This document shows, in pieces, positions 4,234 through 23,906 of a stretch of 33,722 nucleotides of DNA. The stretch spans positions 1 to 33,722 of IMG/VR virus record IMGVR_UViG_3300032053_000282. The stretch is one strand, 5' to 3'. Under the pieces are notes generated by a model, which made no database searches, was not told the DNA's origin, and saw only the letters and a program-made list of their open reading frames with translations. Numbering within the stretch: the stretch's first letter is position 1; every line of letters begins with the position of its first letter. This stretch comes from a virus. The translations under genes and the position numbers were made by a program.

Positions 4234-5013
4234 CTATTTGTAGGCCGCGTTGACAAGCAGCGCCGACCCCGGGGCCCCAGCGCCTGAGAACGTGGTCGTT
4301 GCCGCCATCGTGATCGCCGTCGCGAATGTGAACCCCTGCACCGGCATCGGAACGTCGTACCCTCCCTGCGCCGGGACCCAGAGCGAGAGCTTCGCCGTGG
4401 TCACCCCGACCGTCGGGGCGGCGTGGTCGAACACCTGCAGGAACATGTCCGATGCGTTCGGATTGTAGACCGAGAGGTAGTAGAGCGTCCCGGGGGTCGC
4501 CTTGATCGTCCGCGCGGCTCCGAGCACCGCGCCGTCGTAGAGCGGGACCGCGGGGTCTGCGAGGGAGACGGCGGCGGTCGTGATCTGCACGTTGAGCTGT
4601 CGGGTAGTGTAGTTGCAGGTGTCCGACGTCCCGGCCGTCGCCTTCTTGTAGTAGAGCTTCCCGAGCACATAGTCGATCGCGTACTCTCCCTGCGCGAGGG
4701 ACGCGAGCAGGAGCGTTTCTGTCGGGTAGGTTTCGAGATCGAGCGCGACCTCCGTCGTAAGAACCGTCCCGGTGACCCACGCGAAGGACGTCGCGCCCTT
4801 CGCCCCGAGCCGGGTGCCCGTGGCGTCGTAGATCGGCGCCTTGTCGAACCCCACGACCCCGGACGTCCCGGCGGCTCCGGCCGAGAAGCTGACCGTCTCC
4901 GCGAGGACCGACAGCGCGTTGCTCGCCATCGTGATGTCGTTCACGAGCCGGGCCGACTTGCCCGGGCCTACGTCAACGAAGCTGCTGAACTGCCTGCTCT
5001 GAATGTCGACCAT
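4234..5013 (-). CDS. Tail/virion structural protein, unknown family
   Basis: A 259-residue beta-rich protein with no membrane span or signal peptide. It is enriched in Thr, Ala, Val and Gly, and a central YAIDYVLGKLYYKKATAGTS segment reads like the strand-turn pattern of small phage structural proteins. Its ATG shares one base with the stop of the upstream 631-residue gene (TAATG), so the two are probably translated together. It lies between the internal-virion-protein block and the large fibre-like gene. A tail appendage or adaptor role is likely but unproven. Confidence 0.6.
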   Translation of the reverse strand: MVDIQSRQFSSFVDVGPGKSARLVNDITMASNALSVLAETVSFSAGAAGTSGVVGFDKAPIYDATGTRLGAKGATSFAWVTGTVLTTEVALDLETYPTETLLLASLAQGEYAIDYVLGKLYYKKATAGTSDTCNYTTRQLNVQITTAAVSLADPAVPLYDGAVLGAARTIKATPGTLYYLSVYNPNASDMFLQVFDHAAPTVGVTTAKLSLWVPAQGGYDVPMPVQGFTFATAITMAATTTFSGAGAPGSALLVNAAYK

Positions 5014-6908
5014 TATCCACCTCCCGGTGCTGTCGGTTTTGTTTGATCCCTGACCTGCCTCTCAAGGGCGTTTCCGAAGTGGGTGAACAGGACCCTCGCT
5101 GACGCCGGGTCCATCTTCGCCCCGGATTTCGCGGCATCGTACATCTTCTGCCAGAATTTTCCCAGACCTTTGTCGAGATCGCCCGGGGGCTGGAACGGCC
5201 TGCCTTGGAACGGCTTGAAGGCCGCAAACATGCGCTGCTCGTAGTCCAGCACGGCCTTCATCGTCTTCGGGTCGAGCACCTGCGCGAGCTCCTTCCGACC
5301 GAAGTCGTCGATCGTCTTCTTGAACGCCTGCGGGTTGTTCGCGGCCCTCACGAGCCCGTTCAGCACGACGCTCTGGATCGGCTCCTTGAGCGACGGGACG
5401 ACCTTCGCCGCCTCGATCGCGTAGGAGAGCGGGAACGAGTTCTTCCCGATCTTCGCGACGATCTCCTCCGGGTGCGACTCAGCGATCTCACGGAGCTGCT
5501 TCATGTACGGTGTGACCCGGGAGTACTCCTCGCGGGCCGAGGAGATCGCCCTGCGGGTCGCCGGGTCCGACGCCTCCCCCAAGCTGTCGAGCATGGCGAC
5601 CCGGTACTCGTGGGCCACTGGCGCGTACTCGCTCCTGCGCTGCTTGAAGGCGGCGTTCTGCATGTCCTTCCTGATCCGGTCGGCCTCTCGGAAGGTCGGG
5701 TTCCTCTGGAGCTGCTCCACCCAGTCGGCGAGGTCGGAGTAGTACTTCTTCAGCTCCGGCGTCTTGATCTTGTCGATCTCCCCGCGGAGGATGTTGCCCT
5801 TCGCGTCGATGAACCCCTGCTCCTGCAGCGGGGACAGGAGGGCGTTCCGCATCTGCTGCCCCGGGATTCTCACCTTGCCGTAGGCGTTGAGGACCGGCTT
5901 CACCGTCGCGTCGTACCGCGCGCCCATCTCCTCGTTCGCCTTGGCGACCGACTCCTTGAAGTGAGCCCCGGAAGCCGTCCTGCCGCGCCCGGTGATCGTC
6001 TCGGGCATCGACTTCGTCTCGTCCGCCGCCCTCGCCTTCCCCGCGGCCCACGCCTCCTTGCGGGTGACCTCCTCGGCCTTGTGGGTCGCCTTGAGGGGTT
6101 CGAGGCGCTTCTGAGCGGCCGCCTCCTCGCCCTCGACGAGCCACCGAAAGCCGGGGAGCTTCTTCATCCGCTCCGGGAGGACCCGGGTCGCGATCTGCTT
6201 CTCCGCGACGTAGTTGAGGCCCTTCCCTATGCCCTGCGCCACCTTCTGGCCGCCGTAGGCGAGCGCGGCCTGCTTCGCGAACTCGGGGAGCATGTCCTGC
6301 GCGAAGTTCGCCTGCGACGCTAGGTTCGTCCGGACCGTCTCCCCGAGGGTCCCGCGGGGGAGGTTCTTCCCTTCGAGCCCCGTCGCCTGCCGGACGCTTC
6401 TTTCGACCGCGAGGCCCGTCGCACCTCCGAGCCCGGCCCCGAGAGGCCCTGCGGCCGCTCCAATCGTCGCCCCGACCGTCGGGAACTGGCCGTGCAGAAG
6501 CTCTGTGTCCGCGGTGCCACCGGGGGACATGATGCCCTTGCCTTGCGCCCTGTTCGCCTGAAGGTTCTGGACGAGGTCCTTCGCGGCGAAGAGCATGTTG
6601 TAGGGGAACGCCTGCTTCTGCGCGTACTCAAGGGCGTCGACGCCGTGGTCCTTGACGAGGTTCTTCGTCCAGTCGAACGCCTCGCGCGCCCACGTCGGTT
6701 TCTTCCTCGTCTCCTCGAACCCCGAGTCGGTGATCCGAGTGCGAAGCTCGTTCGCGAGCTCCGGCTTGACGTCCCCGCGCGCGACGAGCTCGTTCAGGAC
6801 GTCGAGGCGCTGCTGCTTCGACAGGATCGGAGCGCCTGCGTCCATCTTCAGCCCTTCGGACGGGGCCTCGACTTCCGCCTGCGGGAACATGTCGGAAACT
6901 TTTCCCAT
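5013..6908 (-). CDS. Large internal virion/ejection protein candidate
   Basis: A 631-residue, mostly helical and highly charged protein. Residues about 145-190 are a Gly/Ala-rich hydrophobic stretch (TVGATIGAAAGPLGAGLGG), like the membrane-active glycine-rich segments of ejection proteins. The remaining 400 residues are long Lys/Glu/Arg helices. It is the last and largest of four consecutive helical or low-complexity genes (8287-9903, 7705-8277, 6910-7695 and this one) placed after the tail nozzle and a lytic transglycosylase. In podoviruses this is where the internal core or pilot proteins are encoded. Role is inferred; no family was assigned. Confidence 0.65.
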   Translation of the reverse strand: MGKVSDMFPQAEVEAPSEGLKMDAGAPILSKQQRLDVLNELVARGDVKPELANELRTRITDSGFEETRKKPTWAREAFDWTKNLVKDHGVDALEYAQKQAFPYNMLFAAKDLVQNLQANRAQGKGIMSPGGTADTELLHGQFPTVGATIGAAAGPLGAGLGGATGLAVERSVRQATGLEGKNLPRGTLGETVRTNLASQANFAQDMLPEFAKQAALAYGGQKVAQGIGKGLNYVAEKQIATRVLPERMKKLPGFRWLVEGEEAAAQKRLEPLKATHKAEEVTRKEAWAAGKARAADETKSMPETITGRGRTASGAHFKESVAKANEEMGARYDATVKPVLNAYGKVRIPGQQMRNALLSPLQEQGFIDAKGNILRGEIDKIKTPELKKYYSDLADWVEQLQRNPTFREADRIRKDMQNAAFKQRRSEYAPVAHEYRVAMLDSLGEASDPATRRAISSAREEYSRVTPYMKQLREIAESHPEEIVAKIGKNSFPLSYAIEAAKVVPSLKEPIQSVVLNGLVRAANNPQAFKKTIDDFGRKELAQVLDPKTMKAVLDYEQRMFAAFKPFQGRPFQPPGDLDKGLGKFWQKMYDAAKSGAKMDPASARVLFTHFGNALERQVRDQTKPTAPGGG

Positions 6909-6909
6909 G

Positions 6910-7695
6910 TCATTTCACCTGTAGGAGCTTCATCAGGTCGCCCGTGTCCAAGTCCTTGTAGGTCGTCTTCTTACCTCCGACCATCGAGGCCCACGGCTTC
7001 CCGCCGGACCGCTCCATGATGTTCTTGAACGCTTGGATGCCCTGGCTCCGCTCCGAGCTCGTCCCGGTGATGACCTGTTGCAGGAGCGACATCGCCATCT
7101 CCTGCTCTTGGTTCGACAGGTTGCCGGAGTCGCCCATGCCCTTGACGATGAGCGGGCGGATCATCTTCATCGAGTTCTGGAAGGTCGTCATCTCGGGGAG
7201 GTAGCCCGCCTTCTGCTTCCCGACGTTCACCATCGAGATCGCGCGCCCGGGGATTCCCTCCGCTGCGGGTATCTTGTCGAGGAGCTTGAACATGTTGTCG
7301 ACGATCGGGACGACGATGTTGATCTTGCGGATCGTCCCCTCCTCGTTGACGAACGCCTTCTTGACGTCGATGAACTTCTTCGCCTGATCGAGGTCGCCCT
7401 TGAACAGGACCATCGCGTCGTCGAGGGTGAGGTCTGCGTAGGGCTTCCCGAACGAGGCGATCGCGTCGGCGTTCGCCTGATCGAGCGCACGCTTGACACG
7501 GTTCTCCGTCATCAGCCGGGACTCTGTCGTCGCGGCCGTCTCGGCGGCGGCGGCGGAGGGGCTTGCGACCTGCACGCTGAAGCCGGAGCTCCCCATCGTC
7601 CCGCTCTTGGGAATCATCCCGCCCTGAGCCATCATCCCCGGCGCCTGCGGGTTCGGGGCCGGTGCCCCGCCGAATGTGCTCGATAGCTTACCCAT
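6910..7695 (-). CDS. Internal virion protein candidate
   Basis: A 261-residue protein. The first 60 residues are Gly/Pro/Ala/Met-rich and probably disordered, and residues 60-261 are an all-helical charged domain. It abuts the downstream 631-residue gene (stop at 6910, next ATG at 6908). Both start with MGK followed by a hydrophilic leader. Composition and neighbourhood suggest an internal core or ejection protein. I recognise no enzyme motif. Confidence 0.6.
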   Translation of the reverse strand: MGKLSSTFGGAPAPNPQAPGMMAQGGMIPKSGTMGSSGFSVQVASPSAAAAETAATTESRLMTENRVKRALDQANADAIASFGKPYADLTLDDAMVLFKGDLDQAKKFIDVKKAFVNEEGTIRKINIVVPIVDNMFKLLDKIPAAEGIPGRAISMVNVGKQKAGYLPEMTTFQNSMKMIRPLIVKGMGDSGNLSNQEQEMAMSLLQQVITGTSSERSQGIQAFKNIMERSGGKPWASMVGGKKTTYKDLDTGDLMKLLQVK

Positions 7696-7704
7696 CGTTC
7701 CCCC

Positions 7705-8277
7705 TCACATCCCGGGCAGGGTTCCGTCCCCTACCCCCGGGAGAGTTTCGGGCGCTTTCGTGAGCGCGCCCATCTTGATCGCCTTCTGGAAATCCGCGTA
7801 GGTGTTGACCGTGAACGGAGCGCCGTCCTCCGGGTCCCAGAGCTGGTTCTGGAACTTCGGAGCCCCGATCGTGGCCGCGGGCGGCGGGGTGATCTTCCCG
7901 AGCGGGGAGACCTGCCTCGGAGGGATGGGCATCCCGCCCGGCTGCGCGCCCATTCCGTTGTCCCCCGACAGAGCTCCTCCCCCCATCCCCATCATGCTCG
8001 CAAGCCCGCCCATCATCCCCTGCCCCATCTCTGAGGCGAACGACGGCTTAATCATCATCTGCTTCATGAGGTCGCCCGCCGCCTTGTCCTGCATCTCCGG
8101 GCTGATGACGCTCCAGTTCGGCGTGGTCATCTCCGCGAGCCCGTAGGCCTTCTTCTTCAGGGCTTCGAGCTCCATCTGTGGCTGGCGCTCCATCATCGCC
8201 TTCTGAAGGAAGACGTTCGCGATCTGCTGAAGGCCGCCTCCGAGAGAGTTCCCAAGCCCGCCCCAGTTTATAGCCAT
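7705..8277 (-). CDS. Met/Gly/Pro-rich virion protein
   Basis: A 190-residue protein. The N-terminal third is helical (LGGGLQQIANVFLQKAMMER). The middle is a run rich in Met, Gly and Ser (QGMMGGLASMMGMGGGALSG), which is unusual for this genome, and the C-terminal part is Pro-rich. It is encoded nine bases after the Hint-domain gene and ten before the next internal-protein gene. It probably belongs to the same ejection or inner-core set. No family was recognised. Confidence 0.6.
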   Translation of the reverse strand: MAINWGGLGNSLGGGLQQIANVFLQKAMMERQPQMELEALKKKAYGLAEMTTPNWSVISPEMQDKAAGDLMKQMMIKPSFASEMGQGMMGGLASMMGMGGGALSGDNGMGAQPGGMPIPPRQVSPLGKITPPPAATIGAPKFQNQLWDPEDGAPFTVNTYADFQKAIKMGALTKAPETLPGVGDGTLPGM

Positions 8278-8286
8278 GTCGTTCTC

Positions 8287-9903
8287 CTATCCGAGCGTCG
8301 ATCCGAGTTTGACGCCGTTGACGTAGTAGAAACCTTCGCTTGTCCTGATGTCGTGCGTGAACTGGCTCTGCTCGTTCGACGGCTCCTTCCAGTCGAGTTC
8401 GTCGTGGAACGGATGGCCGTCGGACATGACGACCTCCTTCCCGCTCTTGAAGACGTGACGGAAGAACGTGTGGCCCCTCGGGCGCATCGACTGAGAGACC
8501 TGAAGGACGACGCCCCCCTTGACCTCGTCGCCCGGCTCGATGATGTCCACCGGGAAGGTCCCGCCATCCGACATCTCGATCGGAGTCCCTGCGGGCAAGC
8601 ACATGAGCGCCGCGGCGCCGAGCGTCGCGCCTGCGGGGATGAGCGACCCGAGAAGCCCGGGAGACCCAGGGGACCCGGGGCTTCCGCCCGTCGAGAGCTG
8701 GTAGAGCCGGAAAAGGTCCTCCATCGGCTGGCGGTTCGCCTGCGTCTGTAGGGACCACTCGTTGACCCCCTGCTGCCTTCCGGTGAGCCCCTGCTGGTAG
8801 TTCGCCTGCTGCCGCTGGAGCGCCATGTTCGCCATCTGCGACGCCTGAGCGTCCGTTGCTCCCTGCTGGCGGAATATCTCCTCGGCCTGAGCCGTCTGCT
8901 TCTGCCAGTTGGCGTTCTGCTGCGCCTGCTGCTGCTGCCATCCCATGCCCTGTAGGTACTGGTTCGCGCCGAGCTGCTGCTGCGCCTGCTGCGCGCCGAA
9001 CTGGTTCGACAGGTTCGCGAGCCGGTCTCCCTGATCCCTCTGCTGCATCTGCATCGCGCGCGTCGTGGCGCCGGAGGTGAGCATACCCCTTCGGTTCATG
9101 TCCGCCATGATCTGCTCGCGCTGCAGACCACCGGTCCTCTCCGCCTCTCGGTTCGCCATCGCCATCTGAGGCGTGAAGGCGTCGCCCACCATCTGCTGCG
9201 CGGTCATCCCATTCGTCGGGTCGGTGTACTGCGAGCCCTGAAACTGGTACGGGTTCCGCGCAGCGTACTGCGGGGTCGTCTCCGCGAGGTTCGCCTGCCC
9301 CTGCGCGATGAGGTTCTGTAGGTTCCCCGCCTGCGTGCTGAACGCCGCCCGCTGCTCCGGGGTATACTGCTTCTGCGTCATCTGCTGCTGGAGCTGCGCG
9401 AGCTGGTTCTGCTGCCCCAAGAGTCCGCCCGCGGTCGCGATCGTCGGCTGCAGCTGTCCTTCGAGCTGCTGTCCAGCGGTGAACCGGTTCTGGTTCCAGT
9501 ACGGCTGGGACGACTGCATGATGCCCTGAGTCCTCTGCGCCGCTTCAAGCTGCTGTCGGAGCTGGTCGTCGCCTCCTGAGAGAGTCGTCTGGTATCCGCC
9601 TTGAATGATCTGGCCGGTGCGCGGGTCGCGGGTCATTCCCCCGCCGCCGATCATCCCTCCGCCAGCGCCCATGACTCCGGGGAACTGGAACGTCGGCGTC
9701 TGCTCCTGCCCGCCTCCGGACGCCTGCCACTGCTGCTGGAGCTGCGCGACGCGCTGGTTCTGCGAGTCGAGCATTTCCGGGGTCATGAACTGGCCCATCA
9801 TGTACGAGTTCAGGATGTCGCCCTGGTTCTCCCACCCCGGGCCTCTGAACGGCTGGGGTGATTCAGGTGCGCTCCCGAAAAGTGTCTCGCCCGCTGAGAT
9901 CAT
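8287..9903 (-). CDS. Gln-rich internal virion protein with C-terminal Hint (intein-like) domain
   Basis: A 538-residue protein in two unlike parts. Residues 1 to about 400 are very rich in Gln, Asn, Ala and Met (QQWQASGGGQEQ-type stretches) and mostly helical. A short SPGSPGSPG linker and a hydrophobic stretch follow. From Cys435 to the end there is a Hint domain: CLPAGTPIEMSDG with the catalytic Cys, then VDIIEPGDEV, a block-B-like MSDGHPF with His, and a closing HDIRTSEGFYYVNGVKLGS. Hint domains of Hedgehog and intein type cut the peptide bond before the Cys. Here there is no C-terminal His-Asn and no extein after it, so only N-terminal cleavage would be expected. The start ATG overlaps the stop of the GNAT gene (ATGA). 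The Hint call is confident; the virion role is from context. Confidence 0.8.
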   Translation of the reverse strand: MISAGETLFGSAPESPQPFRGPGWENQGDILNSYMMGQFMTPEMLDSQNQRVAQLQQQWQASGGGQEQTPTFQFPGVMGAGGGMIGGGGMTRDPRTGQIIQGGYQTTLSGGDDQLRQQLEAAQRTQGIMQSSQPYWNQNRFTAGQQLEGQLQPTIATAGGLLGQQNQLAQLQQQMTQKQYTPEQRAAFSTQAGNLQNLIAQGQANLAETTPQYAARNPYQFQGSQYTDPTNGMTAQQMVGDAFTPQMAMANREAERTGGLQREQIMADMNRRGMLTSGATTRAMQMQQRDQGDRLANLSNQFGAQQAQQQLGANQYLQGMGWQQQQAQQNANWQKQTAQAEEIFRQQGATDAQASQMANMALQRQQANYQQGLTGRQQGVNEWSLQTQANRQPMEDLFRLYQLSTGGSPGSPGSPGLLGSLIPAGATLGAAALMCLPAGTPIEMSDGGTFPVDIIEPGDEVKGGVVLQVSQSMRPRGHTFFRHVFKSGKEVVMSDGHPFHDELDWKEPSNEQSQFTHDIRTSEGFYYVNGVKLGSTLG

Positions 9904-10460
9904 GGCGTTTCTCCTGTTTCATGGCCTCGGACTTCGGCCTCGATCGCCTGCTTGTACCGCTTGTTGAACATCCCCTTCGTCATGTAGTACTGCTTCATGT
10001 TGTGGAACTCTCCGTCGATGTAGATGTGGTGCTTGAGGACCCCCTCAAGCTCCCATCCGAACGACTTCGCCGCCTTCTCTGCCGCCAGATTCTCCTCGCG
10101 GATGATCGCGATGACCTTGTAGAAGTTCATGCAGTTCATGATGTGGTAGATCAGGAACTTCCCGGCCTCCTGAACGACACCCTTCTTCTGGTGCTCCTCG
10201 GCGATCATCGTATGCACCTCGCATCTGCGGTTGCGCTCGTCCTTGTTGTGGAGGAGCGCGATCCCGAAGACCTCGGTCGGGGTCGCCGGGTTCACGATCG
10301 CGTAGCACTCCTTCAGCGCCATGCAGTCGTGGATGGAGAAAAGCGGCAGATTGTCAAAGAGCATCCCGTACTTACCGCTGTGATACCACCTGTAGAGCAG
10401 AGGCGCGTGAAGCTGCGGCTCGTACGGTATTATTTTCACTTTGTCATTTGACAGGCGCAT
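9900..10460 (-). CDS. GNAT-like acetyltransferase-fold protein
   Basis: About 186 residues from the ATG at 10460, chosen because AGGGGGC lies just upstream. A longer in-frame reading to 10556 would run through a parS site and into the lysozyme gene. The pattern is that of a GNAT fold: a beta segment near VFGIALLHNKDE, the acetyl-CoA loop region EEHQKKGVVQEAGKFLIYHI, then NFYKVIAIIREENLAAEKAAKSFGWELEG, which is typical of the RimJ/RimL type, and a final HHIYIDGEFHNMKQYYM. The gene lies in the virion block between a lytic transglycosylase and a Hint-domain protein. GNAT genes occur at this position in many podovirus-like genomes, but the substrate is unknown. Confidence 0.75.
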   Translation of the reverse strand: MRLSNDKVKIIPYEPQLHAPLLYRWYHSGKYGMLFDNLPLFSIHDCMALKECYAIVNPATPTEVFGIALLHNKDERNRRCEVHTMIAEEHQKKGVVQEAGKFLIYHIMNCMNFYKVIAIIREENLAAEKAAKSFGWELEGVLKHHIYIDGEFHNMKQYYMTKGMFNKRYKQAIEAEVRGHETGETP

Positions 10461-10482
10461 TATTAGCCCCCTACGGTTGGAA

Positions 10483-10498
10483 TGTTCCACGTGAAACA
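10483..10498. promoter_or_regulatory. parS: parS-like ParB-binding site
   Basis: The 16 bases TGTTCCACGTGAAACA are identical to the parS site described in Bacillus subtilis spo0J and fit the widely conserved consensus TGTTTCACGTGAAACA with one difference. The site lies in the 44-base gap between the lytic transglycosylase stop (10505) and the GNAT start (10460). Known chromosomal ParB proteins load on such sites and spread. This genome encodes a ParB-N-domain protein (23256-23906), but that protein shows no parS-binding HTH domain, so host ParB would be the expected reader. The sequence match is direct; function here is inference. Confidence 0.75.
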
Positions 10499-10504
10499 AT
10501 TTTG

Positions 10505-11017
10505 CTACCCGAGAATCTTTTTGACGTAGTTCCTCGTCTCCGAAATCCGCATCCAAGCGTCGTTCTTCAACCTGCCGGGGCCCGCGTTGTACGCGGCGAG
10601 GGCTCGACGGACGTCGCCGCCAGTCAGGCCCATGAGCTTCGACAAGTACTTCGCCCCGCTAAATATCTGGTCCCTCGGGGTAGCCACCGACAGACCCTCG
10701 GATCTCGCGGTCGCTGGCATGATCTGCGTCAGTCCGTAGGCGCCGACGGGCGATCTGGCGTTCGGGTTCCCGCCGGACTCCGCGTTGATGAGGTTCGCGA
10801 GCACCGACGGGCTGACCCCGTACCTCTGGGCCGCATCTCGGATGTCCGAGCCCCATCGCGCCATCACGCTCTGGTTCCCCTTCACGGGGTGCCCGAGCGC
10901 GGCGGAGCCGTGCTGAAGGTTCATGATGTGGCCCCGCAGGTCGGAGAGCGCGTTGCGAAGGTTCGCGACCCACTTCTGAGCAGCCGCCGGGAGCTTGATT
11001 GTCGGGTCCATTGCCAT
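10505..11017 (-). CDS. Virion lytic transglycosylase (SLT domain)
   Basis: A 170-residue protein with a soluble-lytic-transglycosylase domain over residues about 55-170. The catalytic Glu80 is in LINAESGGNPNARSP, followed by GAYGLTQIMPATA (92-104) and AAYNAGPG (141-148), the classical family motifs. Such enzymes cut the glycan strands of peptidoglycan, leaving anhydro-muramic ends. In phage virions they locally open the cell wall during DNA entry. There is no signal peptide, and it sits in the tail/ejection block rather than the lysis block, so a virion-associated role is more likely than lysis. Confidence 0.9.
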   Translation of the reverse strand: MAMDPTIKLPAAAQKWVANLRNALSDLRGHIMNLQHGSAALGHPVKGNQSVMARWGSDIRDAAQRYGVSPSVLANLINAESGGNPNARSPVGAYGLTQIMPATARSEGLSVATPRDQIFSGAKYLSKLMGLTGGDVRRALAAYNAGPGRLKNDAWMRISETRNYVKKILG

Positions 11018-11021
11018 GTCG

Positions 11022-11516
11022 TCACCAGATGAAGAGGTTCGTGCCGTCAGAGTAGAGCCGGAGCTCGCCGTAGTCCTCGGCGATGTCGACGCTCGCGTGC
11101 CCGTCGATCGTCTCCGCGCCCTCGCCCTGCACCGTGATCGGGAAAGTTCCCGCCCTTCCGAACTCGTCCTTCACGAAGACGACGAACGTCCCGGCCGCGA
11201 TGAGCGCGGACGGAATCTTGATCGTCCTCGCCGCGGAGGTGTCGGTCACCCCGATGATGAACTCCTTGACTCCCGTGGTGTTGCTCGCCGCGTACGCCCC
11301 TCGAAGGAAGGCCACCCCGCCCTCGAACTCGTGCTTCCCGGTCCACGTATAGTCGTCCGCGAGGTCCACGTTCGCCGCGTCGATGTTCCCGTTCTGGAGC
11401 GTGTAGAGCCGCGAGATGCGGAGGTTGACCTCCGTGGCGTTCGCGACCGTCCCGTTCGTGAAGGTGTAGGGGTCTGTCTGGACCGCCCCGGCTGAAATCA
11501 TGCCTGCTGAAATCAT
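11022..11516 (-). CDS. ETIDG-motif virion protein (paralogue 2)
   Basis: A 164-residue beta-rich protein. The C-terminal 75 residues carry ITVQGEGAETIDGHASVDI and SDGTNLF, the block shared with 11524-11931 and 1753-2076. The N-terminus begins with a near-perfect 15-base tandem duplication giving MISAG twice, so the ATG at 11516 and the one 15 bases downstream both look usable. The first has GAGG upstream. It lies between the lytic transglycosylase and its sister gene, next to the tail nozzle gene. Probably a small tail or head-decoration component. Confidence 0.7.
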   Translation of the reverse strand: MISAGMISAGAVQTDPYTFTNGTVANATEVNLRISRLYTLQNGNIDAANVDLADDYTWTGKHEFEGGVAFLRGAYAASNTTGVKEFIIGVTDTSAARTIKIPSALIAAGTFVVFVKDEFGRAGTFPITVQGEGAETIDGHASVDIAEDYGELRLYSDGTNLFIW

Positions 11517-11523
11517 GGCTGCC

Positions 11524-11931
11524 TCACTCTATCGTGTAAAGGTTTGAGCCGTCCGACCTCAGCCGCAGGGCCCCGTAGTTCGCCGCGATCGTCGCAGTCG
11601 CCACACCGTCGATCGTCTCCGCGCCCTCGGTGGCGACGGTGATGTTGTTCGCCAGCGCACCGCCGGACTCGTCCGAGACCGTGATCTCGTTGTCAACCTT
11701 CGCGATGAACGCGCTCGCGATCGTCACCGTCCTCGGGGCCGCCGTGTCCGTCACCGCGACATTGAAGTCGTCGGCCGTCGTCTGATAGCTGATCCCGGTC
11801 CTCCGGACGACCTTCCGCTTCTCGTACTCGGAGAGCAGCCGGTAGGCGTCCGTCAGCCAGAGCGTGAGCCGCTGGGAGTAGTCCAGCATCTCCGGCATCC
11901 CGTTCGGCTGTATCGGCGGCCTCGGTAGCAT
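11524..11931 (-). CDS. ETIDG-motif virion protein (paralogue 3)
   Basis: A 135-residue protein. The N-terminal 45 residues are a Pro-rich leader and a helix (YSQRLTLWLTDAYRLLSEYEKRKVV). Residues about 50-135 are the beta domain with NITVATEGAETIDGVAT and a final RLRSDGSNLYTI. It is clearly related to the next gene downstream and to 1753-2076. Its ATG at 11931 follows the propeller gene's stop by one base, so it is translationally linked to the tail tube/nozzle genes. Confidence 0.7.
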   Translation of the reverse strand: MLPRPPIQPNGMPEMLDYSQRLTLWLTDAYRLLSEYEKRKVVRRTGISYQTTADDFNVAVTDTAAPRTVTIASAFIAKVDNEITVSDESGGALANNITVATEGAETIDGVATATIAANYGALRLRSDGSNLYTIE

Positions 11932-11932
11932 A

Positions 11933-13507
11933 TCACTCCACGTACTCGGGCTGCTGCCCGAGGTTCGTCGCGCCCATGATGACGTCCTCGATCCGCATCG
12001 CCTCTGCCGGGGTCGAGTGCGCGAGCTGCAGGAGGAAGTACCTCCCGGAGACCGCGTCCTCCCCGAACGAAGGCGTCAGCTCGACGCGCGTGTATTTCGT
12101 CTCCGGCTCGCTCCAGAGTCCGGTGCCCCAGACCATCGCACCCCAGAGGGACCCCCCGGTCGGGATGACCGCCACCCCGGCTGCGCTGTTGCCGCTCGTC
12201 GTCACCGTGACCGACAGGTGCGTCTCGGAGCTCTGCGTCGTCACGACCGCGAGCTCGGTCAGGAGCTTCACGGACGACGGGTCGCCCATGTCGAGCTTCC
12301 CGGACTGCCACTTCGCGTCGATCGTCAGCGACCCCTCGTCGTCGAGGCCGTAGTCCTGCCGGAAGACGTTCCCGTCGTAGTCGGCCGTCACGAGAATCTG
12401 CTGCGCCGTCGCCGTCTCGAATATCGCCATGCAGTTCGCGTCGATCCCGAGGTGGTAGAGGTTCGTCGAGAGCGGCTGCCCGTCGTCCGAGGTGTAGGTG
12501 TCGTTGAAGTAGTCGTAGGCCATGATCTGGTCGTGCGCCGTCCCGGCCCCGTAGGTCATCGTGAGCCAGTACTGCTTCAGCGGCCGGTAGTTCGCGCTCC
12601 CGCACTTCGACAGGCGGGTCTTGTTCATCTTGTCGTAGAGCGGCTTCGCCGGGTCCCCGAGCGGGATGAGGTTCTTCGACCCGTTGAACCCCTTGAGCTG
12701 CCCCTCCTTCGACAGGAAGACGAGGATGTTCCCGTACCTGCGGCTCTCCACCTCCTGAATCGAGTACCCGCTGGCGCACCCGTCCCCGGAGACGATGAGC
12801 TGCGACGAGTAGTCGGCGTAGGAGGAGCCGGAGATCATGAATATCGAGGACGGCTTCATCACGATGATCCGGTCGGCGTAGCGCGCGACCCCGGTGATGT
12901 CCTCCCCGTCCCCGCGGAACCGCTGCAAGTCCCAGGCGACGTCCCACGTCTCGCAGTCGAAATAGTCGCTGATGTAGATGATGTCGTCGACCGCGACCCA
13001 GAGGCGGTTCATGTGGACGACAGGGAACCTGAAGTCGCCGGGGGTCGCGGCGAGCGCAGCGGCGTTGGCCGCACCTCCGAGCCATTTGAACGGGGTGTCC
13101 TGCTCCGGGCAGATGATGAAGCACTCGTTGCCGCCGTTGTCGAAGAACGTCGCGAAGGAGACGAGGTTGTCCGCGTCGTCCGTGACCGTCACCGCGCCCG
13201 TGAGGTCGGTCCACGAGTTCGTCAGCTTCTTGAAGGCGTCCCCGCCGACCCCGACCTGATACCGGGTGCCGCCGATGATCCCGCTGTAGAGCCCGGCGAT
13301 CGTCTTCGCCGTGGCGTCCGTCTTGTCCTTGAAGAGGTTCGTCGAGATCGACGCCGACCCGCCGCGCTGCATGAGCGCGTCGTTCGTGATGTTCACGTTC
13401 TGCAGGGCGGACGCCTCCATCTGCCCGATCGAGGTGTCGGACTTCATGAGGTTCAGCCCCAGAAACTTCGGGAGCCGCAGGTTCGCGCTGTTGATCTCCT
13501 GTCCCAT
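11933..13507 (-). CDS. Tail nozzle/tubular tail protein, beta-propeller type
   Basis: A 524-residue beta-rich protein whose middle has regularly spaced propeller-like strands: RFPVVHMNRLWVAVDDIIYISD, then TGVARYADRIIVMKPSSIFMI, NILVFLSKEGQLKGF and QYWLTMTYG. This repeating 'value, label, display' pattern is typical of podoviral nozzle or stopper proteins (T7 gp12 and P22 gp10 analogues), which close the portal channel. The N-terminus SANLRLPKFLGLN with SALQNVNI is also typical. It starts immediately after the adaptor gene stop (TAG then ATG). Function is inferred from pattern and order; no named family was verified. Confidence 0.75.
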   Translation of the reverse strand: MGQEINSANLRLPKFLGLNLMKSDTSIGQMEASALQNVNITNDALMQRGGSASISTNLFKDKTDATAKTIAGLYSGIIGGTRYQVGVGGDAFKKLTNSWTDLTGAVTVTDDADNLVSFATFFDNGGNECFIICPEQDTPFKWLGGAANAAALAATPGDFRFPVVHMNRLWVAVDDIIYISDYFDCETWDVAWDLQRFRGDGEDITGVARYADRIIVMKPSSIFMISGSSYADYSSQLIVSGDGCASGYSIQEVESRRYGNILVFLSKEGQLKGFNGSKNLIPLGDPAKPLYDKMNKTRLSKCGSANYRPLKQYWLTMTYGAGTAHDQIMAYDYFNDTYTSDDGQPLSTNLYHLGIDANCMAIFETATAQQILVTADYDGNVFRQDYGLDDEGSLTIDAKWQSGKLDMGDPSSVKLLTELAVVTTQSSETHLSVTVTTSGNSAAGVAVIPTGGSLWGAMVWGTGLWSEPETKYTRVELTPSFGEDAVSGRYFLLQLAHSTPAEAMRIEDVIMGATNLGQQPEYVE

Positions 13508-15617: not shown

Positions 15618-16565
15618 CTAGACCGTCACGCCGTCCAGCACCCAGCACGACTCGGCCCGGTTCGTGGTCAGCTGCGCGTACAGACGCAGCTTCGCGACGA
15701 GGATGTCCTGGTTCGCGGGCTCGATGAAGTTGCCCATCTTGAAGTTGTAGTCCGTGTGGATGTACAGCTTCAGGTACTTCGTGTTCAGGCCGTAGATTTT
15801 CCCGGCCGGGCAGTTGGCGTCAAAGATGAAGTCGATGCCCTGAAACTTGAGCGCCTGAAAGCCGAGGTCCGCGAGCTTCGGGTTGAGGAACTGCGCCTTC
15901 CCGTCCGCGATGGCTTCCATGTAGCCGAAGTTCGTGCTGTCCGTGACGATGATGTCGGTCCGGTCGTTGCCCCTTGCGCAGGTGCGGACGGCCTTCGACA
16001 TCTTCGACAGGAGGTACGTCCCGTACGCGCCGACGCTCGTGTCGGCGTAGTTCCGCCAGAACGAGTTGGCGACGCGGCTGATCCCGCCGAGCGTCCCGAG
16101 GGACGGAGCGACGTCGACGATCGCCTGCAGCCCGAGCATGTCCTTGCCCGCGTTGCCGGTGCCGTCTCCCATCATCATCTTGCTGACCTTGTCCTCCATC
16201 GACACGATCGCCTGTTCCTTCAGGCCGTCGAGGAGGGAGATCTGCTTCGCTTTTCCTGCGTTCCGGGCTTCCTCGATCCCCTCGATGATGACGGGCACGA
16301 CGGTCTGCTTCCAGTTGAACTCGGCCGCAGAGATGTCGTTGGACTTCGTGATGTTGATCGGGTCGGAGCCGGAGTACGACTGGGCGTTGCTGAAAGACGC
16401 GAGCAGCGGGCGAACGATGGAATCCCCACCGTCCGTCACGATCGCACCCTTGTCCCGCATGAGGCGGAGCAAGGGGATGTGCGAGCTCACGTTGTCAGCA
16501 ATCGTCTTTTCCAGATTCTTGAAAGTCGTTGACGCAATCTGGTCGAATGACGGATTGGCTGGCAT
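15618..16565 (-). CDS. Major capsid protein
   Basis: A 315-residue protein with the pattern of phage major capsid proteins: an N-terminal helix FDQIASTTFKNLEKTIADNV, a mid-domain stretch KQTVVPVIIEGIEEARNAGK with DGLKEQAIVSMEDKVSKMMM, then GNAGKDMLGLQAIV, and a C-terminal beta region GIDFIFDANCPAGKIYGLN. It is preceded by the scaffold gene and has a strong ribosome site (AAGGAGAG). Size and motifs fit an HK97-fold capsid of a small podovirus, and the subunit would form the icosahedral head. Confidence 0.85.
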   Translation of the reverse strand: MPANPSFDQIASTTFKNLEKTIADNVSSHIPLLRLMRDKGAIVTDGGDSIVRPLLASFSNAQSYSGSDPINITKSNDISAAEFNWKQTVVPVIIEGIEEARNAGKAKQISLLDGLKEQAIVSMEDKVSKMMMGDGTGNAGKDMLGLQAIVDVAPSLGTLGGISRVANSFWRNYADTSVGAYGTYLLSKMSKAVRTCARGNDRTDIIVTDSTNFGYMEAIADGKAQFLNPKLADLGFQALKFQGIDFIFDANCPAGKIYGLNTKYLKLYIHTDYNFKMGNFIEPANQDILVAKLRLYAQLTTNRAESCWVLDGVTV

Positions 16566-17315: not shown

Positions 17316-19310
17316 CTATTGGACGGGTGGGGCCATCGCCGGACCACCCGGCGGTAGAGGCCCCGCTTGCGGTTGACCTACGGGCCCTTCTCCTCCCGGC
17401 ATGGGCGGTAATGGCATCATGCCGTTGAAGCTCGCCCCGTTGCCCGGCGGCATCCCGCCCGGCTGAGGCATCCCTTGAGGAGCGGGCGGGGCGGTAACGG
17501 CCTTCGCCTGCTCCATCGCCTTCTTCTGCGCCTCGAACAGCTCGTGCCCGAGGATGTGGATGACGTTCTCGGTCGAGTTGTTCGACTCTCGCCTGTGGAC
17601 TTCGAGGTGGTAGGGATGGTCCTCGCTGATCTTCGGCGCGATGTAGACGCCGTTGTTCAGAAGGCGGCTCTCCTCCATCGGGTTGTCCTTGCGGAGCAGG
17701 AGGTTGTCGTTCTCGACGCCGAAAACTTCGGCGGCCTCCGTAAGGAGCTCCTCGTGGTCGACCCCGGCCATGAGCTGCGCCGTCGCGACGAACCCCGCGA
17801 ACCCCTGAAAGCGCGCCATCCGGCTCTGGTCGTTGTCCGCCATCGTGGACCCGGCCTTGATCGACGCCTTCAGCTTCTTCGAGATGTTCTTCTTCGTCAT
17901 CTTGACGAACGGATGCTTCTCGTTCCCCTGAAGCATGTCGCCCATCGTGTTCTGCTCGCTGAGGAACGCCGACGAGCTCATCGCGGAGAGCGAGATCATC
18001 CGGGTCGAGGTGTAGTTCTTCTGCATGAGCGCGATCCACTTGTTCGCTATCGACGCCATGCACTCCTCCAGCCGCTCCATGTTCTCGGAGACCTGCTGCG
18101 AGGCGGCCATCTCGACGGCCTTGACCTCGGTCGCCGTCTTGTCGGTGCCCGGCATCTGCCGGAGCGCCTGCTTCGAGATGATCTGGATGTCCTGACGGCA
18201 GGCGTTCTCCGCCTGATAGATCGAGGCGTCGAGCTGGGCGTGCTGCAGAGCGACGACCGCCTGATCCGGCTTCAGCGTCACGATGACCGCGTCGTCCGAG
18301 CTCTTGATCTGGGCGATCTGCTCCTCGGTGAGCTTCGTCTGCGCGGTGACGATGTACTTCGAGTTCCCCTTCTTCGCGTGGGCGACCTCCATCGTGCGGT
18401 AGGTCGCCAATTCCATCAGCTGGTCGCGCCAGAACTCGTAGTCGCCCAGAGGGTCGGACCGCTCCGGGATGTCGTTGTAGGTGAGGAAGTCGTACATCGT
18501 GTCGTAGGGGTACCGTTTCTTGTCCGGGCCCTGCACGAAGCCGGCGATCCCGTCCACGATGTAGGAGACGGTCCCCTTCCGGCGGTCCTCGATCTCGTAG
18601 AACGTCCCGTACTCGAAGTCCTCCTTGACGTCCGCCGCGTACTTCTCGGTCCCCGGCTCCGCCGCGGTCACGGTGATCTGGTCCTTCTTGACCTCGAACC
18701 GGTCCGCGATGTCCTCGCGCTTCGCCCGGCACTCCTGCACGATCCACGGGCTGGCCTCCCAGCAGGGCGAGGTCGAGTCCTTGAGCAGGTACTTCAGCGG
18801 GACGCGGTCGGTGCGAACTTCGTCGTTCTGGACCCTGTCGTCCCATTCGTCCTTGATGAAGTCCTTCTTGAAGTTGAAGTAGGTCTTGAACGCGCAGACG
18901 CCGTCGAACTTCGCCGACTTGATGGCGGCCCGGCAGACCTTCTTCATCTTCAGGTCGCCCCACTTCTTGTTGACGATCAGCTCCGCCGCGCGCGCGTCCG
19001 CCTCGGCGCCCGGCTCGTCCGGCTCCACGAAAATCTTCGGGTTCTTCGAGTAGTACTCGGAGACCGACTGCTTCATGTCGACATAGACGAGGTTGACGGC
19101 GACGGTGTCGTGGTATCCCTGCGGGAAAATCTTGCCTTCGTAGTGGTCGCGCGACCGCTCGCCGCTTTCCAGCCGCGACTTGCGGGCCTCCTTCGCCAGC
19201 GAGATGCGCGCCTTCCAACGCTCAAAGGCCGTCATGGCATCCTCGGCGGGATTCTTGACGGCCTTCTCTGCCTGTTCGTCGGTTTTTACCTTCTCGATCG
19301 CCTTGGGCAT
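17316..19310 (-). CDS. Portal protein
   Basis: A 664-residue protein, within the range of podoviral portals. A charged N-terminal region leads to HYEGKIFPQGYHDTVAVNLV, VSEYYSKNPKIFVEP, KSAKFDGVCAFKTYFNF and VPLKYLLKDSTS, the order seen in P22-like and related portals. Next comes a wing region (EECMASIANKWIALMQKNY), and the C-terminal 60 residues are Pro/Gly-rich. The dodecameric portal is the DNA channel at the capsid vertex. TerS and TerL lie upstream and scaffold and capsid downstream, the standard order. Confidence 0.88.
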   Translation of the reverse strand: MPKAIEKVKTDEQAEKAVKNPAEDAMTAFERWKARISLAKEARKSRLESGERSRDHYEGKIFPQGYHDTVAVNLVYVDMKQSVSEYYSKNPKIFVEPDEPGAEADARAAELIVNKKWGDLKMKKVCRAAIKSAKFDGVCAFKTYFNFKKDFIKDEWDDRVQNDEVRTDRVPLKYLLKDSTSPCWEASPWIVQECRAKREDIADRFEVKKDQITVTAAEPGTEKYAADVKEDFEYGTFYEIEDRRKGTVSYIVDGIAGFVQGPDKKRYPYDTMYDFLTYNDIPERSDPLGDYEFWRDQLMELATYRTMEVAHAKKGNSKYIVTAQTKLTEEQIAQIKSSDDAVIVTLKPDQAVVALQHAQLDASIYQAENACRQDIQIISKQALRQMPGTDKTATEVKAVEMAASQQVSENMERLEECMASIANKWIALMQKNYTSTRMISLSAMSSSAFLSEQNTMGDMLQGNEKHPFVKMTKKNISKKLKASIKAGSTMADNDQSRMARFQGFAGFVATAQLMAGVDHEELLTEAAEVFGVENDNLLLRKDNPMEESRLLNNGVYIAPKISEDHPYHLEVHRRESNNSTENVIHILGHELFEAQKKAMEQAKAVTAPPAPQGMPQPGGMPPGNGASFNGMMPLPPMPGGEGPVGQPQAGPLPPGGPAMAPPVQ

Positions 19311-19677: not shown

Positions 19678-21153
19678 CTACTGCATCCCGAGCCGGTGCC
19701 CGTGCTTCGCCCTCTCACGATCCGCCTGCTTCTCCGCCGCTTCGAGGTCGGTCATCGGACGGGAGTCCAGCGTGTCGAGCAGCGGCGGGCGGCTCATGAG
19801 GAACAGGCGGCAGGATTCGAGCCCGTGGTCCACGCTGTCCGCCGAGATGTCCTCGATCTTGTGCTTGTCGTGCACCGCTGTCGTGATCTCGTCAATCAAG
19901 TTCGGGCAGTCGGTCGAGATGTGCCACCAGCTCGACTGCTCCCCGAGATAGTCCCTGAGCCGCAGGTAGTCGCGCATCCGGGACCAGCCGGGGACGCGCG
20001 CGCTGTCTCCCATGAGCAGGGGCATCCCCTCCTCGGCCCAGACGTCGCACCGCTTCATCGAGACGGTCCGGCCGAACTTGCGGGAATGATGGGCGATCTC
20101 CATCGGGAAGGACTGGGGGTCGCCGACCGCGTACTCGACGACCTCGGCGTGCTTCTCGGTGATCTCCCGGACCTCGCGGGCCGCCTCGACGTCGAGGACC
20201 CGGCTCCGATACCACTCCCGGTAGGTGTAGACGTGCCGGTCCGGGCCGACCGCGTGCCAGTAGACCGCCATGGGCGAGGCGTATCCCCAGTCGACGCTCA
20301 CGAACCGCGGCCATGACGCGCCGATCCGAACGGACGCAGGGTCGTAGGTGTGCCGCGCGCGGTTGAACTCCTCGAAGAACATGCCCTCGAAGACGTCCCA
20401 CTCGCCGTGCAGGTACGCTGCGAGCAGCGCCGGGTTGTGCCCGAAGGCCTGCTTCAGCGTCTCCTCGTAGTTCGGCGGCAGGTGGGGGTTGTCGGACGGA
20501 AGCGCCTTGACGAACGTCGTCCCGGGCGCGGGCAACCTGATGTATTTGTTCTTGATCCAGCAATGCCGAGGGTTCGCGGTGTAGAGGATTTTGTACGGAG
20601 GAACGACCTTATTGACCACGAGCCGGAGCGATCCTTCGAGGACGGCGATGTCCTCCTGATCCGTCTCCTCGGCCTGATCGACCGCGATGAAGGCCAGCTC
20701 CGCGCTGTTGAATTTGTTGACGTTCTCCTGATCGTCCAACCCGCCGTAGAATATCTTCGCGGCGCCGTCGATGACGATCTCCTTCTCGCCCGGGCGCACG
20801 GTGTAGAGCGAGTGCGGGATGACCTTCTTCCATGTCTCGAAGGTGGTCTTGTTGAAGTCGACCGCGCGCTTCCTGCCGACGAACCCGACCGGGACGGGGA
20901 ACTCCGACGGCTGCAGCCCGAAGGCCTCGATGAGCCACTTCGTCCACCAGTAGGCCCAGACGCAGAGGAGGAAGGACTTGCCCCCGCCCTTGGCCCCGCC
21001 ATAGGCGAGGTTCGCGTTATCCGGCGAAGTCAGGACCCGGAAGGCCTGCGACTGGCGGGGGGTGAGCTCGAAGGTGAGTTGATCCGTGGACTCCGTAAAT
21101 GCCCCCAGACGATTCGGGCGGCCTAGCCCCCGCCCGGAGGGTAGATCGCCCAG
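19678..21153 (-). CDS. terL: Terminase large subunit (start codon unresolved)
   Basis: ATPase-nuclease of the DNA packaging motor. Counting from a CTG at 21153, residues 51-60 are the Walker A loop YGGAKGGGKS. Walker B is LAFIAVDQAEE (near 155), and the RNase-H-type nuclease includes FVSVDWGYASP (near 288), AVGDPQSF and SVDHGLESCRLF. About 491 residues is normal for the family. The frame has no ATG, GTG or TTG between the terS stop (21172, same frame) and Walker A. CTG at 21153 or 21108 would be possible. Alternatively, the out-of-frame ATG at 21163 would serve if one base were missing nearby. Identity is certain; the start is not. Confidence 0.9.
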   Translation of the reverse strand: MGDLPSGRGLGRPNRLGAFTESTDQLTFELTPRQSQAFRVLTSPDNANLAYGGAKGGGKSFLLCVWAYWWTKWLIEAFGLQPSEFPVPVGFVGRKRAVDFNKTTFETWKKVIPHSLYTVRPGEKEIVIDGAAKIFYGGLDDQENVNKFNSAELAFIAVDQAEETDQEDIAVLEGSLRLVVNKVVPPYKILYTANPRHCWIKNKYIRLPAPGTTFVKALPSDNPHLPPNYEETLKQAFGHNPALLAAYLHGEWDVFEGMFFEEFNRARHTYDPASVRIGASWPRFVSVDWGYASPMAVYWHAVGPDRHVYTYREWYRSRVLDVEAAREVREITEKHAEVVEYAVGDPQSFPMEIAHHSRKFGRTVSMKRCDVWAEEGMPLLMGDSARVPGWSRMRDYLRLRDYLGEQSSWWHISTDCPNLIDEITTAVHDKHKIEDISADSVDHGLESCRLFLMSRPPLLDTLDSRPMTDLEAAEKQADRERAKHGHRLGMQ

Positions 21154-22425: not shown

Positions 22426-22452
22426 CGTGAAACGTGCCTGCACGTTATCACG
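22426..22452. repeat. 12-bp inverted repeat at the end of the Mom-like gene
   Basis: CGTGAAACGTGC and GCACGTTATCACG form a near-perfect inverted repeat around a CT centre (one unpaired A at 22447). It covers the stop codon of the Mom-like gene and the 37-base gap before the DUF6496-like gene. There is no T run on either strand, so it is not an ordinary terminator. It could be an mRNA hairpin that controls the downstream ribosome site or a dimeric-protein operator. Confidence 0.6.
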
Positions 22453-23263
22453 AACCCTTGACTTCTGCAACGTCTTGAGCGCCGAGGTCGGATGTGCGCC
22501 GCCCTCCCCCAGCTGGTAAGCTGGGTGCATCGCTGCCTATGCTTTCGGCGCTGATAGGTTTCCCCTTGTACATCCGGGCACCGCACTTCTCGATCTCTGA
22601 AAATGGAACGACCGGGACGGCAAGGTTCTCGCGGGCTTTTGGGTCGAGGAAGTAGATGTATCGAAGCTGAAACCCCGGCAGGGGATGAGCCCCGGCTTCC
22701 TTCAGGTGCTTCATGGAAGCGGCACCGGTCTTGAGAATGTTCTTGCCTTTTGCCGCAGCAACTTTGTTGATCCGGCGGTTCACTCCTGCGCCGATGCGAT
22801 AGGAGATGTCGGTAAAAACTTCATCGCCAAGCTCCCAGATGGTCGTGTTCTTCTTGATTCCGGTGAGCACGAACCCGCTCGCCCGATAGATCGTCCCGTC
22901 ACCGCATTGCGTACCATCCGCGAAGCTCACCACCCACTTCATCCACGGATAGGTCTTTTTTATCCACCGCATCGCGAAGCTGATCGCCCTGCTCTCCGAG
23001 TTTCTCGGAAGCCAGTCGGAAAAGGCCAGCCGGTTGAGCTCAAGGAACTCGTTCCAGAGAGTCCCCTTCACCAGCCCGAGCATCTTGCGCTTGTCGAGCG
23101 AAGGCCCGAACTGCATCGCTCCGCCGAGGCGATCGTTCAGGAAAACCCCGAGATGAAGCTGGGAGTTCATCACGACCTTGCGAGAGTAATGCACCGCCCG
23201 GATGACCTTGTTGGCATCCGCTGCCGAGATCGGCTTGACGATGATGTTCTTCGCATCACCCAT
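22448..23263 (-). CDS. Mom-like adenine-modification protein
   Basis: 271 residues from the ATG at 23263, which overlaps the end of the ParB-N gene by eight bases. The core matches the Mom family: VIRAVHYSRKVVMNSQLHLGV, LGGAMQFGPSLDKRKM, ELNRLAFSDWLPRNSESRAI, then WVVSFADGTQCGDGTIYRA and SGFVLTGIKKN. Phage Mu Mom is a GNAT-related enzyme that converts adenine to methylcarbamoyl-adenine in DNA, protecting it from restriction. The conserved core supports the same kind of reaction here. The last 40 residues are a variable tail. Substrate sequence and chemistry were not tested. Confidence 0.85.
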   Translation of the reverse strand: MGDAKNIIVKPISAADANKVIRAVHYSRKVVMNSQLHLGVFLNDRLGGAMQFGPSLDKRKMLGLVKGTLWNEFLELNRLAFSDWLPRNSESRAISFAMRWIKKTYPWMKWVVSFADGTQCGDGTIYRASGFVLTGIKKNTTIWELGDEVFTDISYRIGAGVNRRINKVAAAKGKNILKTGAASMKHLKEAGAHPLPGFQLRYIYFLDPKARENLAVPVVPFSEIEKCGARMYKGKPISAESIGSDAPSLPAGGGRRTSDLGAQDVAEVKGS

Positions 23264-23906
23264 TGACGAACCTCTGCGCGATGAAGGCGAGCGCGTTCCC
23301 GTTGCTGTTCTCGTTGATCGGGTTCTCCCCGGCCCCGGACTCCTTCGCCTTGTCGATGGCAGCGTTGATCTCTTCAACCTGCTCATCGTGCAAGGTGAAC
23401 GTCATCTGCTGAAAGTGCTCGCGATCGCCTTGAGAGAGAGCAGGGGGTTCCACCTCTTCCGCGCTCAATCCGAAAATGTCCGGCAGGTCAATGGCCGGGA
23501 GCAGGTCCTTGAGATCGAGACCGGCCTCCATGAAGAAGTCCGCCAGCCCCGACTCGTCGATGCGCCCGTACCGAGAAGCCGCGAGCAGGACCTTCGCCTT
23601 CGCTTCCTTGCGATCTTTCGCGTCGATGAACACGACAGGCATCTCGTCGGCCGGAAGATGCCATCCCTTATCTGCGAGCTGTTTCAGAACGAAAACGCGC
23701 TGGTGGGAGTCGATGATGTAGTTCTTCCCCTCGTTCCGCCAGATGAAGCCGGGGAACGTGAGCCCGTACTTCAATATCGAGCTTTCGATCTTCTGCGCCT
23801 CCTCCTTGCGGAGGGTTTTAAGATCGCCCTGAAAGTGAATGAGGTCAAAAATACTGACCTTGTCCTTGGTCTCGCAGGTCACTCGGATTTCTTTTTCACC
23901 CGGCAT
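23256..23906 (-). CDS. ParB-N (ParB/sulfiredoxin-like) domain protein
   Basis: 216 residues. The N-terminal part shows the ParB-N pattern: an HFQGDLKTLRKEEAQKIESS helix, YGLTFPGFIW (box I-like), then NYIIDSHQRVFVLKQL (box II-like, with DSHQR where partition ParBs have GERR). The C-terminus FTLHDEQVEEINAAIDKA and ENSNGNALAFIAQRF is shared by phage ParB-like proteins found beside DNA methylases and modification genes. The central parS-binding HTH domain of true ParB is absent. Tight coupling to the Mom-like gene suggests a joint role in DNA modification or nicking. That pairing is inference. Confidence 0.8.
   Translation of the reverse strand: MPGEKEIRVTCETKDKVSIFDLIHFQGDLKTLRKEEAQKIESSILKYGLTFPGFIWRNEGKNYIIDSHQRVFVLKQLADKGWHLPADEMPVVFIDAKDRKEAKAKVLLAASRYGRIDESGLADFFMEAGLDLKDLLPAIDLPDIFGLSAEEVEPPALSQGDREHFQQMTFTLHDEQVEEINAAIDKAKESGAGENPINENSNGNALAFIAQRFVNG

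Follow-up and report, generated by a model that had tools for sequence, protein, structure and literature searches.

A C-terminal Hint domain predicted to remove itself from a putative ejection protein of an Mx8-like phage

The closest described counterparts of the domain analyzed here are the Hint domains of inteins, BIL proteins and Hedgehog, and the unrelated Peptidase S74 (intramolecular chaperone autocleavage) module. Inteins sit within conserved host proteins, with both exteins present. According to PMC7664689 and PMC7765530, Hedgehog uses only the first (N-S acyl shift) step, and BIL domains without a +1 nucleophile mainly cleave; B-type BIL domains are described as carrying the N-side intein motifs, with predicted N-cleavage, and as lacking the terminal His-Asn (PMC7765530), which is conserved in the A type. 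Peptidase S74 is described as an autopeptidase (PMC7824862), with the self-cleavage dyad S911/K916 in endoNF (PMC8326128). Within the open-licence literature that we searched, virion maturation was not described as a role of inteins or BIL domains; that search, which covered titles and abstract openings and is thus a weak negative, also returned no account of a phage ejection protein that ends in a Hint domain.

We analyzed a viral DNA stretch of 33,722 nucleotides (IMG/VR record IMGVR_UViG_3300032053_000282; hereafter, the window) with a GC content of 63%, the late genes of which lie on the minus strand:

19678-20799, minus strand: TerL
17316-19310, minus strand: portal
15618-16565, minus strand: Mx8-type major capsid protein (phrog_9953, E = 2.4e-62), used as bait for related phages
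11933-13507, minus strand: tail-type virion protein
11022-11516 and 11524-11931, minus strand: two baseplate-like genes (phrog_20556 matches)
10505-11017, minus strand: transglycosylase
9900-10460, minus strand: GNAT acetyltransferase (PF13302, E = 3.1e-9), directly upstream of P0001, from Met33 of the ORF at 9900-10556
8287-9903, minus strand: P0001, a 538-aa Gln-rich protein with a C-terminal Hint domain (ORF and translation)
5013-8277, minus strand: three genes (7705-8277, 6910-7695 and 5013-6908) downstream of P0001, probable further ejection proteins by position only

The two neighboring genes that match the phrog_20556 baseplate protein are perhaps a tandem duplication. An apparently odd, short TerL was dismissed because the frame runs on upstream across a Walker A-like stretch. 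Elsewhere in the window (22448-23386 and 23256-23906, minus strand), two genes overlap, one being Mom-like and assigned to DNA modification (phrog_1384, E = 1.4e-46) and the other matching ParB-like and DNA methyltransferase families; they are a possible DNA-modification pair.

The P0001 gene starts with the ATG at 9903, which is preceded by AGGAG and shares an ATGA overlap with the preceding gene, and ends with a normal stop codon at 8287, ten bases ahead of the next gene; its third-position GC is 0.87. Gln accounts for 20% of residues 1-433, and the computed mass of the whole protein is 58.6 kDa. The layout is as follows:

8602-9903, minus strand: residues 1-434, predicted mature part, 47.2 kDa (computed mass, gene position)
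8659-8685, minus strand: residues 407-415, (GSP)x3 linker (seen in the translation)
8602-8646, minus strand: residues 420-434, the 15-residue window of highest hydrophobicity within residues 1-434, ending at Met434
8290-8601, minus strand: residues 435-538 (Cys435-Gly538, 104 residues), Hint domain, 11.5 kDa (tblastn, HMM, AlphaFold, fold search)
8599-8601, minus strand: Cys435, predicted nucleophile of the N-S acyl shift (31-sequence alignment)
8413-8424, minus strand: Ser494-Asp-Gly-His497, block B (T/S-x-x-H; alignments)
8347-8355, minus strand: His517-Asp518-Ile519, block F with Asp, where inteins read VYNL/VYAL (mini-intein alignment)
8299-8322, minus strand: residues 528-535, VNGVKLGS, block G, with Gly534-Ser535 at the place of the intein His-Asn (alignment)

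The 105-aa C-terminal end of P0001 was used, with no prior choice of motif, as a tblastn query against 50,697 phage records, 67 of which matched at E ≤ 10. Among the matches listed (60 of the 67), the alignment always begins at query residue 1 or 2 and falls in TerL, UvsX/RecA-like or helicase genes or in unannotated ORFs, the best being a Gordonia TerL (E = 3e-6), followed by a UvsX-type gene (0.03) and weaker matches; judging from the host genes, the matched phage sequences appear to be inteins. Plasmid records yielded 14 matches at E ≤ 10, all weak and mostly to genes of Streptomyces whose annotation names polymorphic toxins with a Hint domain. The search against Hint profiles proposed in an earlier note on this DNA, made from the sequence alone, gave a divided answer. 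An HMM of intein-like sequences, the members of which had been chosen by motif scans modelled on P0001's own Hint domain, scored 38.5 bits (best of 2,000 shuffles, 8.3), and curated Pfam profiles stayed below threshold: Vint at 13.3 bits (cut-off 27, E = 0.076) and Hint_2 at 12.1 bits (cut-off 28.4, E = 0.26), a profile cut-off being a convenience rather than a defining feature of the Hint fold. In NCBIfam, the match was to an intein-containing family, far under its cut-off. A sequence search of the PDB with the P0001 Hint domain alone gave 0 matches; a profile including intein rows matched 44 chains, which shows only that the profile is intein-like. The block A Cys1 (Cys435) with Gly-Thr, Gly-Asp and the block B His (His497) are all present and invariant across 31 aligned sequences, including the Hint domain of a second viral contig, L152.

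AlphaFold modeled the domain with a pLDDT of 86.9 and a pTM of 0.78 from an alignment with 22 further rows, inteins among them; a control run with the window and L152 rows only failed (pLDDT 43.5), so the confidence of the good model rests on the intein rows. The predicted structure is complete through its final strand, and its top Foldseek and VIA matches were all Hint domains: BIL2 (6y75; Foldseek E = 5.7e-5, VIA Z-score = 13.1) led in the PDB, with the gp41-1 intein and Hedgehog (1at0, Z-score = 11.9) among the other leading matches, and all 50 matches listed (Z-scores from 13.1 to 9.5) were inteins, BIL, Vint or Hedgehog domains. Phage entries named “Hint” were also among the matches in a structural viral library. 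With tblastn matches to intein-host genes, HMM and fold in agreement, the Hint identity of the P0001 end, as called in the earlier note, is close to certain.

Within the data searched, proteins of the Hint-ended design occur more than once but are rare, and the Hint end is optional. L152 encodes a 613-aa protein, with the end of a tail-type protein ahead of it and two large genes behind it, that ends in a Hint domain about 35% identical to that of P0001 (E = 2e-17) and scoring 27.1 bits on Pfam Vint; the block G His-Asn is missing in both. This contig was found by scanning viral contigs for the motif M-C-x-[PA]-[AG]-G-T...GD (13 loci, with the motif re-found in 9), so that the Met before the Cys, the Cys and the GT were built into the search; the His was not. 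The L152 body has no similarity to the N-terminal part of P0001, and L191 has an L152-like body (51% identity over 84 aa, E = 1e-16) and no Hint domain, from which we infer that the domain is an optional end module. Searches of viral contigs with either the whole of P0001 or its Hint domain confirmed no close relatives, the neighbor-gene baits (tail protein, portal) gave nothing usable, and a first genome scan with the capsid alignment found nothing. The capsid-protein bait retrieved 46 loci from virus records, none of which (0/46, many being short fragments) had a Hint domain of the P0001 kind. A scan for C-x-P-A-G-T...GD...HP gave 54 loci with the motif re-found in 46; by eye, all of these were inteins or mini-inteins of the ordinary kind, contained in longer ORFs, and none resembled P0001. 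With a two-sequence Hint HMM, 31 of 385 Alphaproteobacteria genomes matched at E ≤ 0.1, and by eye, none of the motif-bearing loci among the 30 listed showed a Gln-rich protein of virion type whose end is a Hint domain lacking His-Asn; in Pseudomonadota, one of 398 genomes matched at E ≤ 0.001.

Two further observations came from these contigs. In L154 (253-327), L155 (991-1065), L157 (3433-3507) and L158 (1865-1939), an intein-like stretch directly follows an H-D-D motif, probably a single TerL site, so that the M-C intein start recurs there. An ORF of L065 (9953-10348) ends about 20 residues past a small Hint domain with an intact His-Asn (VHNKQQ...), resembling A-type BIL domains.

The motifs named in the earlier note (CLPAGTPIEM at Cys435, MSDGHPF and VNGVKLGS) are all found in the P0001 translation; to call them a full Hint pattern was slightly too strong, the closing strand being present and the block G His-Asn absent. 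By comparison with mini-inteins, the domain retains Cys1, G-T, G-D, the block B His and the block F Asp. Block B has Ser where Thr is usual, and block F is without the further-on His, its second position not being conserved. In block G, the intein ending V-x-V-H-N is replaced by V-K-L-G-S, followed by T-L-G and the stop; as had been noted, there is no C-extein, only three residues following this block. P0001 thus has neither the terminal His-Asn nor a +1 Cys, Ser or Thr (KLGS-TLG-stop versus VVHN followed by C), which separates it from both inteins and A-type BIL domains, and agrees with the definition of B-type BIL domains by N-side intein motifs in the absence of the C-terminal motif (PMC7765530). 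Considering that block G is altered and no C-extein follows, cleavage between Met434 and Cys435 would remain and splicing would not: by the intein mechanism, the domain should be capable of the first step only. Self-cleavage is accordingly likely on sequence grounds, and the proposed cut before Cys435 is compatible with the changed block G and the preserved N-side motifs.

The lost block G, the Thr-to-Ser change in block B and the non-conserved block F position would also fit a Hint domain that no longer cleaves and remains joined to the virion protein, acting as a folded cap, as a chaperone or in interactions, and a structural match indicates fold rather than activity. The preserved residues, however, are those needed for the first step only, and Cys1, the sole cysteine in P0001, is kept together with GT, GD and the block B His in two Hint domains that are only about 35% identical, the conservation of Cys and GT in L152 being partly built in. 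We consider loss of activity unlikely.

What the Hint domain is attached to is less directly readable. The N-terminal part of P0001 matched no named family, so a virion or morphogenesis protein other than an ejection protein, for instance, a tail assembly factor whose Hint domain may still cleave, is possible, though less likely; against it stands the order of tail protein, acetyltransferase, P0001 and further genes, which fits Mx8-type phages. An acetyltransferase followed by a phrog_6121-type “virion structural protein” is found in four phage records with Mx8-type capsids, ppBjS10J-1, RHph_N2, MW202489 (where this protein was recognized by tblastn from family members) and BUCT555, and the Mx8 order of p54, small p55, p56 and p57 resembles that of P0001, 7705-8277, 6910-7695 and 5013-6908, a small gene followed by larger ones. 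A further match to phrog_598, “DNA ejection” (E = 5.7e-30), in the phrog_6121-type protein PAE2_13 again speaks against a different function. The phrog_6121 proteins (Mx8 p54 and relatives; P22 gp7/T7 gp14 class), of which P22 gp7 is listed as a gp14-like outer-membrane component in PMC8954989, share with P0001 the gene position after the acetyltransferase and a hydrophobic tail ahead of the end module; P0001 differs in being longer and Gln-richer than most and in lacking a profile match. The phrog_6121 profile matched nowhere in the window, P0001 included, and its comparison with the N-terminal part of P0001 gave an hhalign probability of 0.8% and no HMM match; the three downstream genes likewise had no significant family match. 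For phages of this kind, the genes of internal virion proteins are reported as hard to place on a tree owing to divergence and mosaicism (PMC10386132). The earlier description of P0001 as a Gln-rich, internal-virion-type protein thus holds for gene order and composition and not for homology to phrog_6121. The assignment of P0001 to the virion rests on the gene order, the N-terminal sequence itself being uninformative, and its position points to an ejection-protein role.

To compare protein ends, we surveyed 27 phrog_6121-type proteins whose ends were complete, drawn from phages, genomes and virus contigs. Left out were L045 and L133 (cut at the contig end), L018 (identical to L046), L014 (no phrog_6121 match), L130 (fusion ORF), L115 and L117 (repeats of the L112 gene), partial matches without a complete end, and S74-only matches (other proteins); L111 was admitted by its S74 end and position rather than by the phrog_6121 scan. 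The S74 boundary was set at L008 residue 431 and transferred through alignment A9. Peptidase S74 was matched in 16 of the 27; 16 extend at least 45 residues past the boundary, every one of them with Ser-x4-Lys preserved, at the same Ser-Lys spacing as in the endoNF dyad. The other 11 have no such end module. In 23 of the 27 (not in L103, L108, L120 and L131), the 15-residue window of highest hydrophobicity begins among the final 30 body residues, in most cases 0-3 residues ahead of the S74 Ser or of the protein end. In a computation covering P0001, L152 and L191, with the S74 boundary taken as the last “SD” of the sequence, this window directly adjoins the Cys in P0001 (residues 420-434) and in L152, and not in L191. 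Given that a hydrophobic tail directly precedes both modules, the Hint domain occupies the place of S74, with the nucleophile as its first residue. As a side observation, the phrog_6121 profile match in L120 (1486-2802) crosses a TAA, a stop that may have replaced an end module.

This placement bears on two further explanations. The closest sequence relatives among the matches listed are inteins of phage enzymes, as would be expected of an intein in decay, its C-extein half lost through a deletion or a frameshift. Yet the domain is intact as far as its final strand, terminates at a regular stop codon ten bases short of the next gene, follows a hydrophobic tail as S74 modules do in phrog_6121 proteins, and has the same design in a second phage (L152), and inteins lie inside conserved proteins with both exteins, all of which makes such decay highly improbable. 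Alternatively, the Met434 thioester could be passed to a lipid, a peptidoglycan amine or another virion protein, attaching the N-terminal part through its new C-terminus, as the earlier note had suggested by analogy to Hedgehog. The chemistry would be the same, there is likewise no C-extein, the Hedgehog Hint is among the structural matches, and the end to be attached is hydrophobic, a tail that might be positioned at a membrane. But the three residues past block G leave no room for a Hedgehog-like acceptor-recognition region, and other phages have S74 or nothing at this gene position, giving a plain carboxyl end, so that simple removal of the end piece is favored over ligation, which is chemically possible and, in our view, improbable. 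S74 also acts as a folding chaperone for trimers, and its location need not, therefore, mean that cleavage itself is wanted.

On balance, with moderate confidence, we regard P0001 as a virion protein of the ejection (pilot) type, encoded by an Mx8-like phage with a short tail, and as bearing a self-removing, N-cleaving Hint cap; by analogy, the best reading is that this cap would do in P0001 what S74 does elsewhere. The Hint domain would fold, after which Cys435 would attack the Met434-Cys435 peptide bond in an N-S acyl shift aided by block B (Ser494/His497) and by the block F Asp518. In the absence of a terminal Asn and a C-extein, the thioester would be resolved by water or a small thiol, releasing a 434-residue mature protein with a hydrophobic, Gly/Ala-rich tail and the 11.5-kDa Hint domain; the timing of cleavage and the importance of the tail for pore formation or assembly are inferred. 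Because the tail of the relatives is followed by S74 or by nothing, cleavage would give all of these proteins the same kind of end.

Compared with the known systems, the P0001 Hint domain agrees by description with B-type BIL domains, with which it shares the Hint fold, the N-side motifs, the missing terminal His-Asn and the predicted N-cleavage (PMC7765530); those, however, are described from variable regions of bacterial proteins, whereas this domain closes a phage protein encoded at a virion-gene position. The class 1 inteins found in TerL, UvsX and helicases of phages show detectable homology to it through blocks A and B, and differ in that the P0001 domain has no C-extein, His-Asn or endonuclease and is C-terminal rather than inside an enzyme. 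The Hedgehog Hog/Hint is likewise a C-terminal Hint domain limited to the N-S acyl shift and matches in fold, but P0001 is a phage protein without the sterol-recognition region. Peptidase S74 has in common with it a self-removing C-terminal module behind a hydrophobic tail, with the catalytic residue (Ser) first, and differs in fold, in its Ser-Lys dyad (PMC8326128) and in working as a trimer. The P0001 Hint domain is thus probably, as far as motifs can tell, of the N-cleaving type, placed in a new protein and a new location.

The presence of an unrelated self-cutting domain at the same place suggests that the virus particle is built or fired with a step in which the end piece is removed. More tentatively, short-tailed phages may put interchangeable, unrelated self-cutting modules (S74 in many, Hint in few) on one spot of an ejection protein, capping a membrane-active hydrophobic tail until assembly or packaging and then freeing it. 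If so, virion maturation would be a task for which Hint chemistry has been co-opted, and a single function at a single site would be served by two autoproteolytic domains unrelated to each other. A minimal Cys-based domain of 104 residues that cleaves itself and is C-terminal only would also make a useful tool. For the phages themselves, this would help explain the “tail-fibre” S74 domain on many of these virion proteins and would make testable how an aggregation-prone, membrane-active protein stays safe before infection.
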